A stretch of 64,000 bases of DNA from Sphingobacterium composti (GTDB lineage Bacteria; Bacteroidota; Bacteroidia; Sphingobacteriales; Sphingobacteriaceae), in contig NZ_WUQZ01000016.1 in assembly GCF_009829075.1 (NCBI RefSeq), positions 1-64,000 on the forward strand, read 5' to 3'. The notes under the pieces are model-generated. The model made no database searches and was not told the DNA's origin. It saw only the letters and a program-made list of their open reading frames with translations. Of this stretch, positions 41,298 through 50,482 are shown in pieces. Each line of letters opens with the position of its first letter. Position 1 is the stretch's first letter. The position numbers were made by a program, and so were the translations under genes.

Positions 41298-41507
41298 ATT
41301 TAGATTTATAAGTATTTCCTTAAAAATTTCTTACCTGATCGTGTCTTCTCGATTATTGTTTATATACACATCTCGTATTTTCAGATTATCACTTACATTG
41401 GGTTTATAATGATTAATTCAAAATTCAATATAACTTTTCACAAAGAATTTCCATATTGTTTCATAAAATCATTAAATTGTTTCATATTACAACCTTTGAT
41501 AAACCAA

Positions 41508-44500
41508 ATGACCATTAGACTTTTAATCTTTACGTTTTTCTTATTCACTTTTAATCATATTCAAGCCCAACATTATTACTTCAATCATTACAAGGTAGAA
41601 GATGGTGTTTCGAACAATACGATTATTTGTAGTGCACAAGATCAAGATGGTTTCATGTGGTTTGGTACTAAAGATGGACTAAACAGATTTGACGGCTACA
41701 GATTCAAACATTTCTTTTTGGAATCTAATCGCACGAATAGTCTTGTTAGTAATTTCATTCATAGTTTATTAGTTCGCTCCAACAAAGAATTGTGGGTAGG
41801 AACAGATCAGGGAATCTACATTTTCAATCCTTACGAAGAAAAGTTTACTGCTATAGAAAACTTTGAAAAAGGTGAAATTTTAAGCATTCAAGAGGATGAA
41901 GAGGGTAATATCTGGTTTATATCTAACAATCGACTATATCAATATATTGCTAATTCCCACAAAATTATAAGTAAAACACCTCACTTCTTGATCAATGCAT
42001 TTTGTATTGATAAACTAAATCAAGTTTGGGTTGGCACAAATCAAAAAATTATTAACATCGCGAATTCATTAGAGTATCATCTTCCTATCCAAAAAGATAT
42101 ACCGAATAGAATTGAACGATTATATGCTGATGAGACAAATGATATTTGGATAGGAACATCAAAAAAAGGAGTATTCAGATGGAACAGAAATTCTAAAACA
42201 ATTACGAACCTAATAGAGACCGTAAAAGAGAATGTTCCTTTATTTGTCAGAGATATTAAGCAAATTTCACCATCAGAATATTGGTTAGCTACTGAAAGTG
42301 GGTTAATAATCTATAATAGTGTAAAAGAGAATTATCATATTCTACAACATGAAATAGACAATCCTTGGAGCGTTTCAGATAATGCGCTTTACACAATCAC
42401 GAAAGATCATCAAGGTGGTATATGGATTGGTTCTTTTTTTGGTGGCATCAATTATTACCATAATTCAAATAATTTGTTCGAAAAAATATTCCCTCGATTT
42501 AGTACAAATTCTTTACAGGGACATGCCGTTCGTGAGATTGTTGAGGACAATTTTTATAATATATGGATTGGAACAGAAGATAACGGATTGTCGCATTGGA
42601 ATCCTCGAACGAACGAATTCAAACATTTTAATCTCAACTCCAATTTAGCTCACACAAATATTCACGGATTAGCAATCATTGGTGACAGTTTACTTGTTGG
42701 GACCTTCGATCATGGTATGAATGTCATTGATGTCAAGTCCAAAAAAGTTATAAAATATTTTGATTCACAAAACACTAATAAAACACTTTCAGATAACTTC
42801 ATTTTTCATATCTACAAAACAGCACACAACCGAATACTAATAGCTACTTCTAGAGGCTTGTTTGAATTCTATCCTGGTAAAGACACCTTCAAACTCGTAG
42901 AAAGTGCTCCTTCCCATATTTTTTATACATCAATTTTTCAGGATAAAGATCAAAATATATGGTTGTCTACTTGGAGAGATGGACTACTCAGACTAAGCAA
43001 TAATCAACTTACAACTTACAGACATAATCCTAATGATTCCAATTCTATAAGCAGTAATAGGATAAATAAGGTTTTTCAAGATTCGGATAATAATATTTGG
43101 ATTGCGACCGAAATCGGATTATGCAAATGGAATAAAAAATCAGATACTTTTCAATCATTTACGAAAAAGAACGGTTTACCAAGTAATTTAATTTTAGCTA
43201 TTCAAGAAGATAATAGAAAAAACCTATGGATATCTTCTACCAATGGATTGATAAGGTTAAACACAGAGGACCTAAAAATTAAAATTTACAACCAAGATTT
43301 AGGCATTCTTACTCCACAATTTAATTATAATTCTACGCTCAAAGACTCCAAAGGGTTATTGTATTTTGGCTCTTCCAAAGGGTTAATACGATTTGCACCC
43401 CATATGATTAACGATGATTTTTCGACAATAAGTACCACTCCAATTTATATAACAGGGATACAGACACACCAAAAAGAACTATCAATCGGTAGAGCCAAAA
43501 ATAATTTAAAAAAATCGATTATATATACGGACAAAATTGAACTGGAGCACGATGAATCAACCATTTCTTTAGAATTTGCTGCGTTGAATTATACCTCTGC
43601 CAAATCTACCTCTTATCGCTATAGATTATTAGGATTGGATACTACTTGGACATTTACTAGAAATTCAACCAAGGCAAATTTCACTAAAATTCCTTCTGGG
43701 AGTTATACTTTCCAAGTGCAGGCTGTTGATGCTAATGGTGACGCTATTTCAGTTACCAAATCCTTACAGGTAATAATTCATCCTTCAATTTGGGCGAGTT
43801 TACCTGCTAAGATTATATATCTTCTACTCCTATTTTCCACTCTAGTTTTTATCATAATAGTATATGACAGAAGAATTAAAGAAAAAAATAGAAAAAGACT
43901 TGAAATCATTAAGGCACACAAAGAACAAGAAATTTATAAGGCCAAAATGAATTTTTTCATGAGTATTACGCACGAAATAAAAACACCGCTTACATTAATT
44001 CGTGCACCAATTGAAAGGTTACAAGAAGATGAGCTCCCTCCTGAAAAACGAAGAAACTTGGTTAGCATTATTTACAATAACACAGAAAAATTAGTCAGAC
44101 TAACTGATAAACTATTAGATTTTAGAAAAACGGAAAGCAGTCAATTCAGTCTTAAACTCGAAAAAAAATCAATAAACAAATTAGTAAGAACCTGTATACA
44201 AGAATATCAAACATTAATAGAAAGAAAAAGTATCAAATTGACATTTTCAGCCACACAAGAAGTAGAAGCGAGTATTGATGTAGAAGCAGTATATAAAATA
44301 ATAGACAACTTGCTGTCAAATGCAATTAAATATTCTGAAAGAAGAATTACGATTGAGCTAAATGTCATTTCAGATCCAATTCCAAAAGTTAGGCTAGTCT
44401 TTAAAAATGATGGAATATTACTATCAGAAAAGGAAATTAAAAGCATTTTCAAACCTTTTCATCGCTCCAGTGAGCACTATCAGATTGAAGGATCGGGACT

Positions 44501-44606
44501 TGGGCTTGCCTTAGCGAATTCATTTGCAACATTACATGGTGGAAGTTTGTTTTTTGAAGAAAATAAAGAAAAATTGAATATATTCGTATTACAATTACCT
44601 GTTTAA
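41508..44606 (+). CDS. Two-component propeller sensor histidine kinase (HTCS-type)
   Basis: A 1032-residue sensor. A signal peptide (ending HIQAQ) is followed by two seven-bladed periplasmic propellers (about 25-680; repeats like MWFGTKDGLNRF, IWIGT and IWIATEIGL), a Y_Y_Y domain (about 695-765), one membrane helix (about 767-790) and HisKA/ATPase domains with His822 (SITHEIKTP), NLLSNAIKY and GSGLGLALA. This is the sensor half of hybrid two-component glycan regulators; receiver and DNA-binding domains are not fused but are encoded by the next gene. The start at 41508 follows from the signal peptide; a longer frame from 41409 is unlikely. It should sense oligosaccharides released by the divergent enzymes. 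Confidence 0.9.
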   Translation: MTIRLLIFTFFLFTFNHIQAQHYYFNHYKVEDGVSNNTIICSAQDQDGFMWFGTKDGLNRFDGYRFKHFFLESNRTNSLVSNFIHSLLVRSNKELWVGTDQGIYIFNPYEEKFTAIENFEKGEILSIQEDEEGNIWFISNNRLYQYIANSHKIISKTPHFLINAFCIDKLNQVWVGTNQKIINIANSLEYHLPIQKDIPNRIERLYADETNDIWIGTSKKGVFRWNRNSKTITNLIETVKENVPLFVRDIKQISPSEYWLATESGLIIYNSVKENYHILQHEIDNPWSVSDNALYTITKDHQGGIWIGSFFGGINYYHNSNNLFEKIFPRFSTNSLQGHAVREIVEDNFYNIWIGTEDNGLSHWNPRTNEFKHFNLNSNLAHTNIHGLAIIGDSLLVGTFDHGMNVIDVKSKKVIKYFDSQNTNKTLSDNFIFHIYKTAHNRILIATSRGLFEFYPGKDTFKLVESAPSHIFYTSIFQDKDQNIWLSTWRDGLLRLSNNQLTTYRHNPNDSNSISSNRINKVFQDSDNNIWIATEIGLCKWNKKSDTFQSFTKKNGLPSNLILAIQEDNRKNLWISSTNGLIRLNTEDLKIKIYNQDLGILTPQFNYNSTLKDSKGLLYFGSSKGLIRFAPHMINDDFSTISTTPIYITGIQTHQKELSIGRAKNNLKKSIIYTDKIELEHDESTISLEFAALNYTSAKSTSYRYRLLGLDTTWTFTRNSTKANFTKIPSGSYTFQVQAVDANGDAISVTKSLQVIIHPSIWASLPAKIIYLLLLFSTLVFIIIVYDRRIKEKNRKRLEIIKAHKEQEIYKAKMNFFMSITHEIKTPLTLIRAPIERLQEDELPPEKRRNLVSIIYNNTEKLVRLTDKLLDFRKTESSQFSLKLEKKSINKLVRTCIQEYQTLIERKSIKLTFSATQEVEASIDVEAVYKIIDNLLSNAIKYSERRITIELNVISDPIPKVRLVFKNDGILLSEKEIKSIFKPFHRSSEHYQIEGSGLGLALANSFATLHGGSLFFEENKEKLNIFVLQLPV

Positions 44607-44617
44607 TAACCAATTCT

Positions 44618-45412
44618 ATGTCAATCTTTTCCAGTCAAAAATCGACTATTTTGCTTGCAGATGATAATCAAGATATTCTGGATTTTATAGCAGATGACTT
44701 AGCACACTTATTTAACATTGTAAAAACGTCTAATGGATTACAAGCATTCGAATATGTAAAAAACAATAATGTAGATGTAGTAGTCAGTGATATTATGATG
44801 CCTGTGATGAATGGCTATGAGTTATGCGAATTACTTAAAGAAAACAGTACTTTCTCGCATATTCCCTTTATAATGCTTACTGCCAAAAATAGTATACAAT
44901 CAAAAATCGAAGGGTTAGAATATGGCGCAGATGCGTACATAGAAAAGCCATTTTCTCCGAGCTTCTTACAAGCACAAATTACTAGTCTAATCCGAAACAG
45001 AAAAAATGTACGAGAACATTATGTAAATATAAGTGATGCTCCTATTGCAAAGCCCAAACTCAACAAATCAGATCAACAATTCCTTGATAAAATTCATCTT
45101 TTTATTCTGGATAATATTACAGACCAAGATTTGTGTGTGGATAGTATTGCTAACAAGATGAATATGAGCCGCCCCACCTTGTATCGAAAAATAAAATCTT
45201 TATCGGATTTACCACCAAACGAACTTATAAATATTGTTCGACTAAATAAAGCAAAACAATTACTTAGCGAAGGTGAATTAAAAATTTACGAAATATCTGA
45301 TTTAATTGGATATAGTAATCCTTCTCATTTAAGCCGTAATTTTCAAAAACACTTTGGTATGACGCCCAAAGACTATGCAGACTTTCTGAAAAATGGAGAA
45401 ATAAAAATATAA
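44618..45412 (+). CDS. Response regulator with AraC-type DNA-binding domain
   Basis: A 264-residue regulator. The receiver (about 8-125) has Asp58 (VVSDIMMP), the Thr of MLTAKN and the Lys of EKPF. The C-terminal AraC helix-turn-helix pair (about 155-260) ends YSNPSHLSRNFQKHFG. It begins 11 bases after the sensor kinase stop. In most Bacteroidota this module is fused to the propeller kinase; here it is a separate chain. It probably activates the divergent glycosidase operon. Confidence 0.92.
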   Translation: MSIFSSQKSTILLADDNQDILDFIADDLAHLFNIVKTSNGLQAFEYVKNNNVDVVVSDIMMPVMNGYELCELLKENSTFSHIPFIMLTAKNSIQSKIEGLEYGADAYIEKPFSPSFLQAQITSLIRNRKNVREHYVNISDAPIAKPKLNKSDQQFLDKIHLFILDNITDQDLCVDSIANKMNMSRPTLYRKIKSLSDLPPNELINIVRLNKAKQLLSEGELKIYEISDLIGYSNPSHLSRNFQKHFGMTPKDYADFLKNGEIKI

Positions 45413-46139: not shown

Positions 46140-46835
46140 CTATTCTTCATCTACAAATTTATACCCTAAACCACGAACAGTTTGTAAATAAGTAGGTTTA
46201 TCAGGGTTGCTCTCAATTTTTTTACGTAAACGTACCACATGCATATCTAAGGTTCTTGTGTTCACATTAGAACTGTATCCCCAAACAACTTCCATTAATT
46301 CTTCACGTGTAATTTCCTTACCCATGTTTTGCAAGAAATGCAGCAAAATACGGTTTTCCAATATCGTTAATTCTATTTTTTTACCATCACGAATCAACGA
46401 ATGGATTTGAGGATGATGTTCAGTTTTACCAAAAAAGTATACATCTTTATTCGCATTCTTAGGCACGAAGAAACGCACTTTATTATCAATCATAGCCACC
46501 AACACGTCCATATTGAATGGCTTGGTAATATAATCCGTAATTCCATGACTATATGCGTCGATTTTATCAACATCTTGGGACTTAGCTGTCATCATGATGA
46601 TAATATTTTCAAAGCCCTCTTTACGTACTGCTTGACATACATCAATTCCTTCTTTACCTGGTAACATCCAGTCCAAAAGAACGATATCAGGCTGCACAGA
46701 TAATATTAACTCTTCTGCTTCAATTCCATTACCGGACTGAACTACTTTATATCGCTCTGTCTGTAAACGATGACTGATCAAAAAGCGTAAATTCTCATCG
46801 TCTTCTATGACAGCAATTGTTATATCTCTATCCAT
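46140..46835 (-). CDS. OmpR-family response regulator (RprY-like)
   Basis: A 231-residue regulator with receiver (Asp in VLLDWMLPG, Thr in MMTAKSQ, Lys in TKPFN) and a winged-helix output domain with VVWGYSSNVNTRTLDMHVVRLRKKIE. It is the last gene of a tight operon, four bases after the sensor kinase. Bacteroidota relatives are named RprY. Its targets are not known from this window. Confidence 0.93.
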   Translation of the reverse strand: MDRDITIAVIEDDENLRFLISHRLQTERYKVVQSGNGIEAEELILSVQPDIVLLDWMLPGKEGIDVCQAVRKEGFENIIIMMTAKSQDVDKIDAYSHGITDYITKPFNMDVLVAMIDNKVRFFVPKNANKDVYFFGKTEHHPQIHSLIRDGKKIELTILENRILLHFLQNMGKEITREELMEVVWGYSSNVNTRTLDMHVVRLRKKIESNPDKPTYLQTVRGLGYKFVDEE

Positions 46836-46838
46836 AAT

Positions 46839-48515
46839 TTAAACATTTCTAACGTCTATAGGAAAAATCAATGTAAATGACGTCCCTACATTCAATTCAC
46901 TTTCTACCTTAATCTCACCCCCCATAAATTCGGTGATTTCTTTACAAAACGCCAAGCCCAAACCTATACTTCCTTGTTGGTTGAATTGGTTCTTGACGCG
47001 ATAGAATTTCTTAAAAATACTATTAAATTCTTTCTTATCTATACCTATGCCTCGATCTTTGAATAAAATAACAAAATTTTTCTTAGTTTGTTCCACTTTT
47101 ATCTCCAAAAACCTATTTGCAGGGTCAGAATACTTATATGCATTGTCAATCAAATTCTGAAATACACTATGTAATAATACAGGATCAGCATATATCTCAT
47201 CCCTCACCTTTACACTGTCCTTTAATGATAGGTCAGGATATTTGATGCGCGTCGATTCAAAAACATGTTGACAAAACTCCTCTAAATCTATAAACTCTCC
47301 ATTAAATTTTATAGATTTATTTTCAATTTGAGCAAATGATAACAATTTATTCATTAAGCTATTTAGCTTATCAGCCTCTTGATCCAAAATACGACCATAC
47401 ATAGCCCTTTCTGTATCGCTAATTTGTTCTGCACTTTTGATATTGTTACCAGCTATTTTGATAACACTAACAGGGGTTTTAAATTCATGAGTTAAGTTAT
47501 TGATGAAATCATATTGCAATTGAAACATTCTATTATTAATCAAAACATTGCGATATATCAAATAACCAATCAACAGCAAAATCAAATAAATCAAAACCAA
47601 AATCACAACAACAGGAAAAAACCATTTATTCACTTCCTTTGTGATATGACTTTGAGAAGTTTCAAATTGCAGTTTGTAGTCTGAAAGTGCCCCTGGTAAT
47701 GCAATTTCTGTTTTTAAATAGGATTGTTCGTTCAACGAATATTGATCTACTACTGGCTGAATAGTTATATCCTCGTACAGATTTGGATACTTATTCTTGA
47801 CTTTAATTTTCGTTGGATTAATATAAAAAACATAAAAATCCTGTTCATAACTCGACTTTTGAAAAGTAGCATCAACCATCATATTACGAAATGACAAGAT
47901 ATCTGTCATCCGAGGTATATTCATATAAGAAATTTTGCCTGGTTGAATATTGTAAAACAACTTATAAACTTCTGTATTGGAGATTCGACTCGTATCAATA
48001 TTATCTCTACCCAAATAAGTACACAGCTTCAAAAAGATACTATACAATTCTTCATTCGATGATAAATCGCCACCACTTCCTTGACGAGAACTTTGAAATT
48101 TATAATCGCTTGTCAAGGTATACTGATAACTAGATTTAGCCGATGCCCCAAAATTACCAATCCGCATTTGACGATCTATCGAATCTATATTGGTAAATAA
48201 AATATCTGAAAAGTCAATTTTCTGTACAAATGGATACCGACGCAATATAGAGTTAGAAAAATCCTTAGCTTGCACTGAATCCATAAAACCTTGATAATAG
48301 GCTACCTCAGGTATTTTCTCTTGAAAAAATTCGTTAAAATCGCTTATAGTCTCATCAAAAACTTCAGCTTTTCGGTTATTGAAGTCAGTTTGTACAAAAT
48401 TGGTCGTGATGGTTCGTGCAAAGAAAACCGAAATAACAAACAATAATGTAACGAAAAGAAGGAAGACGATAAGTAAACCAAAATTTTTCCTATATCTCGA
48501 ATCTAATTTAGCCAT
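46839..48515 (-). CDS. Sensor histidine kinase (RprX-like)
   Basis: A 558-residue kinase with two membrane helices (about 14-35 and 290-315) flanking a periplasmic sensor of about 255 residues with no recognised domain. The cytoplasmic part has His343 (NLTHEFKTPVS), NLIDNAYKY, FKDRGIGID and GSIGLGLAF. Its start codon overlaps the stop of the S9-like lipoprotein (TAATG), so the two are translationally coupled; the periplasmic domain could read a state of that lipoprotein. Confidence 0.93.
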   Translation of the reverse strand: MAKLDSRYRKNFGLLIVFLLFVTLLFVISVFFARTITTNFVQTDFNNRKAEVFDETISDFNEFFQEKIPEVAYYQGFMDSVQAKDFSNSILRRYPFVQKIDFSDILFTNIDSIDRQMRIGNFGASAKSSYQYTLTSDYKFQSSRQGSGGDLSSNEELYSIFLKLCTYLGRDNIDTSRISNTEVYKLFYNIQPGKISYMNIPRMTDILSFRNMMVDATFQKSSYEQDFYVFYINPTKIKVKNKYPNLYEDITIQPVVDQYSLNEQSYLKTEIALPGALSDYKLQFETSQSHITKEVNKWFFPVVVILVLIYLILLLIGYLIYRNVLINNRMFQLQYDFINNLTHEFKTPVSVIKIAGNNIKSAEQISDTERAMYGRILDQEADKLNSLMNKLLSFAQIENKSIKFNGEFIDLEEFCQHVFESTRIKYPDLSLKDSVKVRDEIYADPVLLHSVFQNLIDNAYKYSDPANRFLEIKVEQTKKNFVILFKDRGIGIDKKEFNSIFKKFYRVKNQFNQQGSIGLGLAFCKEITEFMGGEIKVESELNVGTSFTLIFPIDVRNV

Positions 48516-50395
48516 TATTTCATCTTCTCTTTCAGAAAGTTCTCAATAATTTGATAATACTCAATTATATTTTCTTCCTTTCTAAACCTTCTACCTTCGT
48601 CCTCTTTCCATACATATTGCAAATCAACATTATTACTTTTTACTTTCTGCACAAATTGATTCACATCTGTCATGGTGTTATAACGATCTCTTCCTCCTTG
48701 AAACATCAAAATTGGCATTCGAATTTTTTCAGCATGAAATAAAGGCGAAATAGCTTTAAAAAGCTCGTATTCTTTCTGAGGATCTCCTATTATTTTATAA
48801 TACAATTGCTTGTAAGAGTTATAATATGGAGGCAATTCTTTGAAATAAGTAAATAAATTTATATATCCAGAAGATGAAATCGCACAACTATATAATGTAG
48901 GATTGAAACAAGCAGCGTATAATGCTGAATATCCGCCAAAACCTGTCCCCATAATAGCAATTCGTTCTTTATCAGCAACCCCCTTATGTATCAACCAAGC
49001 TACCCCATCATTAATATCATTTTGAATTTCGCCACCCCATTCTTTAAAACCAGAAACATAAAAATCTTTACCTAAGCCTACAGAACCACGATAATTTACT
49101 TGAAACACCGCATATCCCCTATTTGCTAAGAATTGTACTTCAGGATGAAATCCCCACACGTCCCTTCTATTAGGCCCATCATGGACAAGCACTACAATTG
49201 GATATTTTGATTTTTTTTGAAGTGGATAGGTAATATAACCCTGAATTCTTCTTCCATCTCGTGAATCAAAGCTAACTTCTTCCATTGGAGAAAGGTGTTT
49301 ATCTCGTAAAGAAGGGTTCATAGGTGTTAATTCCTTGATTTTCCCTTTATAATAATAATAGATTCCTCCCGGATGAGTGTCTGTATAGGTTTTGAACAAT
49401 ACAGTATGAAATGCACTATCTACATCAATGATATCGACACTATTTCCTTCAAATTGTGAAGAAATAGTATTATAAATTTTTTGAAGTTCCGCATTATGAA
49501 TAATGCTTTCTTTCTTCTTAGAAAAAGCCGTTGAAAACAAAACTTCTTGACGCGCGAATGAATAACCATCTGCGTTCAGATCCACCTCATCGTTGCTTGC
49601 CAATATTGTTTCTTCACCATTTTCCAAATCCAAACGTACAACAGCCACTTTATCCCTTTCTCTATTTGAAAGAGCATAAATAGTATGTATTGAATTTTGA
49701 ACGGGTCCCAAGGGATATACCATAGAAGAAAAATCTGTCTCGATTACATTACTGTATGGCATACCTTCTTCTTCCCTATACCACAATTTATCCTCTACAC
49801 TATCACTCGATAGAGCCAATCTTACTTTACCATCAGATGACACAAACCATTCATTAAAGTTGTGAATATTTTTGTCTACTAATATAGGTTCACCTCCATC
49901 CAAAGGAATACGATAGAGATCAATAACTGTAGAATCTCTCCTATTCATTTGTGCTAATAAATGTCCATCAAAAGCCTTAGATGGGGATAACCATTTAATA
50001 CTATGTTTTGCAGGCTCTAGAAGCGTATTTATTTTTTCTGAATGAATGTCAACAGTATAAAGTCGTAGACTATCTTGATAAGATTGCGCATTAGAAAAAA
50101 CAATTGTATTATCCGTCGCCCAAAAATAGTACTGCACATTCATACTATTTTGGTAAGTCAACTGCTTTGAAGAGTCTGGATTTTCTAAATTTAAGATAAA
50201 GATATTTTTGCAATGATCTTCGAGCCCTAGGTAGGACACCCATTTACCATCAGGCGAAATTTTGAAACTAGTATGATCAGGTTTATCAAAAAAATCTTCT
50301 ATAGGTATTAATTGATCTCGATCCTTTCCACCACAACCTATTACTACTATGGATAGCACAATTAACAAACACCTGAATAGCAATTTTATATTCAT
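48515..50395 (-). CDS. S9 prolyl-oligopeptidase-like lipoprotein, predicted catalytically inactive
   Basis: A 626-residue lipoprotein (lipobox VIGC, Cys21) with an N-terminal propeller (about 40-360) and a C-terminal alpha/beta-hydrolase domain aligned with S9 peptidases (DGVAWLIHKGVADKERIAIMG, SPLFHAEKI). The nucleophile motif G-x-S-x-G-G reads GTGFGG, with Gly485 where Ser is required. Asp570 (GGRD) is kept, but the catalytic His motif EGHGF reads EGRRF, with Arg602. Two of the three triad residues are therefore missing while the fold is conserved; it is not truncated. It precedes the kinase gene with overlapping stop and start, suggesting a sensory or ligand-binding role. The catalytic loss is direct from the sequence; the role is inferred. 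Confidence 0.88.
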   Translation of the reverse strand: MNIKLLFRCLLIVLSIVVIGCGGKDRDQLIPIEDFFDKPDHTSFKISPDGKWVSYLGLEDHCKNIFILNLENPDSSKQLTYQNSMNVQYYFWATDNTIVFSNAQSYQDSLRLYTVDIHSEKINTLLEPAKHSIKWLSPSKAFDGHLLAQMNRRDSTVIDLYRIPLDGGEPILVDKNIHNFNEWFVSSDGKVRLALSSDSVEDKLWYREEEGMPYSNVIETDFSSMVYPLGPVQNSIHTIYALSNRERDKVAVVRLDLENGEETILASNDEVDLNADGYSFARQEVLFSTAFSKKKESIIHNAELQKIYNTISSQFEGNSVDIIDVDSAFHTVLFKTYTDTHPGGIYYYYKGKIKELTPMNPSLRDKHLSPMEEVSFDSRDGRRIQGYITYPLQKKSKYPIVVLVHDGPNRRDVWGFHPEVQFLANRGYAVFQVNYRGSVGLGKDFYVSGFKEWGGEIQNDINDGVAWLIHKGVADKERIAIMGTGFGGYSALYAACFNPTLYSCAISSSGYINLFTYFKELPPYYNSYKQLYYKIIGDPQKEYELFKAISPLFHAEKIRMPILMFQGGRDRYNTMTDVNQFVQKVKSNNVDLQYVWKEDEGRRFRKEENIIEYYQIIENFLKEKMK

Positions 50396-50482
50396 ATACC
50401 CGACTTCTATTCAAATAAAGTAATTTTTTAACATATTTTGAGAATTGCAACCTTAATTTTACAGCTTATGAAATTCTATTTC

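Follow-up and report, generated by a model that had tools for sequence, protein, structure and literature searches.

We have found that a lipoprotein of Sphingobacterium composti with the fold of an S9-family peptidase has lost both its catalytic serine and its catalytic histidine, and that its gene directly precedes those of a membrane sensor histidine kinase and a response regulator. With moderate confidence we propose that this non-cutting periplasmic protein acts with the co-translated kinase, the three proteins forming a three-component signalling system. The features of the lipoprotein gene are given below with their positions in the window, i.e. the whole stretch of 64,000 nucleotides that was analysed.

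48515 to 50395, reverse strand: S9-fold lipoprotein of 626 aa, catalytic Ser and His lost (Pfam, alignment, AlphaFold2 model)
50333 to 50335, reverse strand: lipobox Cys21, invariant in 52 aligned orthologues
48941 to 48943, reverse strand: codon 485, GGT, Gly at the catalytic Ser position (alignment and codon check)
48686 to 48688, reverse strand: codon 570, GAT, Asp, the retained triad acid (sequence, tree alignment)
48590 to 48592, reverse strand: codon 602, AGA, Arg at the catalytic His position (alignment and codon check)

The original prediction, made from the DNA letters, was that this lipoprotein keeps an S9 architecture and Asp570 but carries Gly485 for Ser and Arg602 for His. Each of these points is borne out by Pfam, by the codons and by alignment with the solved acylaminoacyl peptidase 5l8s, and the lipoprotein nature of the product is corroborated by the invariant Cys21. 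The Peptidase_S9 family matches residues 414-626 (E 3e-37). In the phmmer alignment, GGSYGGY of 5l8s faces GTGFGGY of the lipoprotein and DEGHGF faces DEGRRF, the Ser and His of the enzyme thus corresponding to Gly485 and Arg602. The AlphaFold2 model, built from 52 aligned sequences (pLDDT 88.1, pTM 0.86), confirms the S9 fold and has 5l8s as its best PDB match (TM 0.76). By fold and homology the protein is therefore a member of the S9 family, with a beta-propeller followed by a C-terminal alpha/beta-hydrolase domain and the Peptidase_S9 match. Of the residues expected in an active S9 enzyme, the Ser of GxSxGG and the His of the C-terminal loop are replaced and the triad Asp is present. Elsewhere in this genome, seven further S9-family proteins carry Ser in a GxSxGG-type motif, which indicates that the loss is specific to the operon lipoprotein. 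The latter is most likely a pseudopeptidase, predicted to cut no longer.

All 60 genomes of the genus that were searched contain at least part of the S9 gene, with the active site covered in 59, and the same residues are lost in every covered orthologue: G-x-G-F-G-G-Y, with Gly at the Ser site, occurs in 59/59, and a basic residue, Arg or Lys, in place of the His in 59/59. Such agreement means that Gly485 and Arg602 are not sequencing errors. The triad Asp is retained across the genus, the one exception being a Glu in a fragment at a contig end (L066). Wherever the same contig carries the kinase gene, that gene follows directly. Among genus pairs with measurable divergence (dS < 2), dN/dS of the S9 gene is 0.017-0.088, i.e. 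strong purifying selection, slightly above the values for the kinase and the regulator. In Sphingobacterium the surroundings of the former active site, a shell that we chose ourselves and that includes glycine-rich structural motifs, have a mean identity of 0.76 versus 0.65 for the rest of the alpha/beta domain. This is compatible, to a modest degree, with a retained binding pocket. No such excess is observed in the other dead lineages (0.58 versus 0.59). In two complete genomes of the genus (L067 and L068, from G044 and G049), the S9 frame is broken by a frameshift or stop next to an intact kinase and regulator; both a real loss and an assembly error could explain this. Many members of the genus also encode, away from this kinase, an active-looking S9 protein of about 760 aa that is 28-31% identical (L093, L094, L074-L078).

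The genes that follow the lipoprotein gene are these.

46839 to 48515, reverse strand: membrane sensor histidine kinase of 558 aa, with HisKA and HATPase_c and no HAMP match
47622 to 48410, reverse strand: kinase residues 36-298, the predicted sensor region in the periplasm, flanked by two long helices that are likewise predicted
46140 to 46835, reverse strand: OmpR/PhoB-type response regulator of 231 aa

All three genes lie where the original prediction had put them. The lipoprotein stop and the kinase start share one base (TAATG), as had been predicted, and the kinase stop and the regulator start are separated by 3 bases, where four had originally been counted. The kinase sensor region matches no Pfam family, and Foldseek gave no family for it either, the listed matches resting on the kinase core. 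An identity as RprXY or PhoRB was rejected because the scores fall below the curated NCBIfam cut-offs (RprY 121 versus 370 bits, PhoB 186 versus 296); the same holds for MtrA (191 versus 300) and for the kinase PnpS (159 versus 400). Another pair in the window, on the forward strand, consists of a Reg_prop/Y_Y_Y propeller sensor kinase (41409-44606) and, 11 bp on, a separate protein with a receiver and an AraC-type HTH (44618-45412); it resembles a hybrid two-component system divided between two separate genes.

The association of the three genes extends over the family. Outside the genus, 65 loci were chosen by their kinase and not by the S9 gene, and an S9 lipoprotein gene is immediately upstream of the kinase in 60 of them. 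S9-kinase-regulator is the standard order in Sphingobacteriaceae, with a spacing between the first two genes that is usually -4 to +34 nt. Searches recovered the kinase from 296 of 301 family genomes and a match to the S9 profile from 120 of the 121 genomes of the order, and one genome that is 100% complete (G163) lacks the S9, kinase and regulator orthologues together. Among 119 genomes sampled across the class, a full-length kinase including the sensor region was found only inside the family, the single match outside it comprising the kinase core only. With a lipoprotein encoded together with a kinase and a regulator, the gene content is that of a three-component system of the QseG or LpqB type.

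The five loci without the S9 gene (L300-L304) all belong to genus g50, which has small genomes and keeps kinase and regulator; a divergent TPR-protein gene adjoins the kinase there. Genus g50 can be regarded as a natural S9 deletion, in reduced genomes. Two further S9 proteins are worth mentioning. Outside the family, a 1028-aa open frame of G068 (L069, 1253-4336, forward strand), some 400 residues longer than the query, contains a part that resembles the S9 lipoprotein, with an intact triad and 32% identity. Genome G103 encodes a second S9 relative with a GGSYGGY motif in a locus with no matching kinase (L311), and its operon copy is Ser-less.

How could a dead peptidase serve a two-component system? 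In our model, an acylaminoacyl-peptidase-like S9 scaffold would be held at a membrane in the periplasm as a non-catalytic module, where it may bind a peptide or another envelope ligand, or report the state of the envelope. It would contact the periplasmic domain of the kinase and thereby set kinase activity, and the regulator would then control its targets, probably including its own operon via a tandem-type element upstream. The reading as a non-catalytic partner is the likeliest in view of the loss of the cutting residues at least seven times with the gene trio retained (see below). It is the best reading of the comparative data, indirectly supported by the family-wide linkage, the repeated triad loss, the purifying selection and the joint absence in G163. 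The persistence of kinase and regulator without S9 in g50 counts against it. As to the originally predicted module for binding or sensing, which would act together with the kinase, its two footings, catalytic loss and operon linkage, hold; the contact and the ligand are what we infer from them. Rate covariation of the S9 protein (mirror-tree style, controlled for core and regulator) was rejected as a sign of specific contact with the sensor, since it is equally strong for the kinase core (partial r 0.49 for the sensor region versus 0.48 for the core) and therefore gives no pointer to the sensor. The divergence between sensor and core in g50 was also rejected as a trace of S9 loss: it is in the lowest tier, but this tier is shared with genera that keep S9.

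Two features precede the lipoprotein gene.

50446 to 50463, reverse strand: conserved 18-bp tandem-type element TGTAAAATTAAGGTTGCA, candidate regulator binding site
50412 to 50419, reverse strand: TTTATTTG, resembling the Bacteroidota -7 promoter box; ...TATTTG or a near form is kept in most genus members

TGTAAAATTAAGGTTGCA is located 68 bp upstream of the lipoprotein start codon, has no second copy in the genome when up to 2 mismatches are allowed, and is retained in the Sphingobacterium and Parapedobacter loci. The equivalent element in other genera is TGTANNNTAAATGTTAC, a pattern present within 200 bp in 46 of 71 loci versus 0.3% in shuffles, the former figure being optimistic since the same data had served to define the pattern. 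The exact pattern at the operon promoter has one site in nine of ten genomes and two in the remaining one. Its TGT-N8-TGT spacing agrees with the 11-bp tandem half-sites that OmpR/PhoB-type regulators recognise. Taken as a putative regulator site, the element suggests autoregulation. A regulon search at one mismatch gave counts equal to those of the reversed-pattern control, with no further targets nameable. An element of 17-18 bp is likewise seen at family loci L125-L144 and L225-L264; about one copy per genome is an unusual specificity for a regulator site.

These data bear on the main rival explanation, which places the lipoprotein on the output side of the system and not on the input side: a regulated envelope protein such as a peptide binder or chaperone-like protein that shares the operon via control by the regulator and does not act on the kinase. 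The lipoprotein gene is indeed the first of the operon, behind the conserved element, and in g50, where kinase and regulator occur without the lipoprotein, the exact element was not found in the four genomes searched. On the other hand, with an element that is nearly unique per genome, the system would regulate almost nothing else by that site, and a linkage of a few bases across a whole family exceeds what co-regulation needs. We consider an output role rather unlikely, though the covariation tests did not separate it from the role as kinase partner.

Returning to the lipoprotein as a partner of the kinase, the repeated loss of catalytic residues is a further line of evidence. Outside Sphingobacterium and Parapedobacter the catalytic states are mixed. 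Several genera have an intact S-D-H triad in the protein encoded at this place of the operon (e.g. L133, L140, L214, L220, L229, L235), next to intermediates of the types G-D-H (L129-131, L215, L228), S-D-A (L245, L249, L256) and R-D-H (L231), further R-D-x, and N-D-Q. Every one of the 90 tree rows has the Asp, including those that have lost the His loop. When active S9 proteins of intact triad serve as the outgroup, the Ser position must have changed at least 10 times on the tree and the His position at least 7 times. A single origin of the Ser loss, tested by holding the Ser-less rows together as one clade, is rejected (lnL difference 1223, p-AU 0.0004). In the operon proteins Ser is encoded by AGT or AGC and Gly by GGN, mostly GGT or GGC; as these codons are one step apart, some reversals may have occurred and the count of losses is approximate. 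The ancestor of the operon protein was probably an enzyme. That the gene, its lipobox and its adjacency to the kinase repeatedly outlast the triad is most simply explained by a conserved role for which catalysis is not required. The original prediction had named orthologues with intact Ser and His in the same operon as evidence that would speak against it, and such orthologues exist in several genera. Because the operon persists whether or not the triad does, they point the opposite way. Given these orthologues, 'dead' does not appear to be a property of the whole system; equally, their triads do not revive catalysis in the window gene. We would suggest, as a tentative idea, that within one operon the change from periplasmic peptidase to non-catalytic receptor subunit of a sensor kinase took place many times in parallel, ligand binding having always been the signalling function, so that intact and dead versions would do the same job.

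The intact triads could also mean that the peptidase role is ancestral and still working, that the signal is trimmed or destroyed, and that dead lineages have passed the job to a paralogue, for which the active 30%-identical proteins of about 760 aa in the genus would be candidates. We find this improbable: active-site residues were lost many times with gene and operon retained, neither nucleophile nor base is left in Sphingobacterium, and the activity of the intact-triad proteins is itself a prediction. That the lipoprotein gene is a decaying pseudogene carried by the operon is very improbable, as the broken frames in 2 of 60 same-genus genomes (L067, L068) and the gene loss in g50 stand against the low dN/dS, full-length frames nearly everywhere and the invariant lipobox Cys and fold motifs.

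Within the family, one protein can be followed in a fixed operon from its intact to its dead forms, a natural series which allows one to ask directly whether the binding or the catalysis of an enzyme is needed for signalling. The family also gives a lead on the function of a two-component system that is near-universal in Sphingobacteriaceae and, as far as our searches show, apparently uncharacterised. No description of an S9-kinase pairing or of parallel losses in one operon was found in the open-licence papers searched; kinases with accessory lipoproteins are known, and so are dead S9 peptidases, and the combination of the two appears to be new within that literature. In E. coli, the operon-encoded lipoprotein QseG binds the periplasmic loop of the co-operonic kinase QseE and stimulates it (PMC6075780). 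The logic proposed here is the same as in QseG/QseE/QseF, with a contact that in our case is conjectural. However, PMC6075780 describes QseG as an outer-membrane lipoprotein and mentions no peptidase fold for it, in contrast to the S9 fold of the window lipoprotein, and the order there is kinase-lipoprotein-regulator instead of lipoprotein-kinase-regulator. In Actinobacteria, the gene for the lipoprotein LpqB adjoins that of the kinase of the conserved MtrAB system; the ensemble has been termed a three-component system and LpqB was proposed to modulate MtrB (PMC5487470, PMC12338722). LpqB is encoded downstream of mtrB and in another phylum, whereas the window lipoprotein is encoded upstream of its kinase. 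To our knowledge, LpqB is not an S9 protein. As for the fold, 5l8s and related S9 enzymes share it (TM 0.76) and align over the catalytic domain, but they possess the Ser and His that the window protein lacks. A dead S9 protein with a partner is known from human: the S9B proteins DPP10 and DPP6, in which the catalytic Ser is replaced (by Gly in DPP10), are non-catalytic partners of Kv4 channels (PMC4350108). These are animal type II membrane proteins that keep the His-Asp pair of the triad, whereas the window lipoprotein has no His, its closest solved relative is an acylaminoacyl peptidase and its presumed partner is a kinase and not a Kv4 channel. DPP10 demonstrates that an S9 protein inactivated by a Ser-to-Gly replacement can serve as the partner of a membrane protein.
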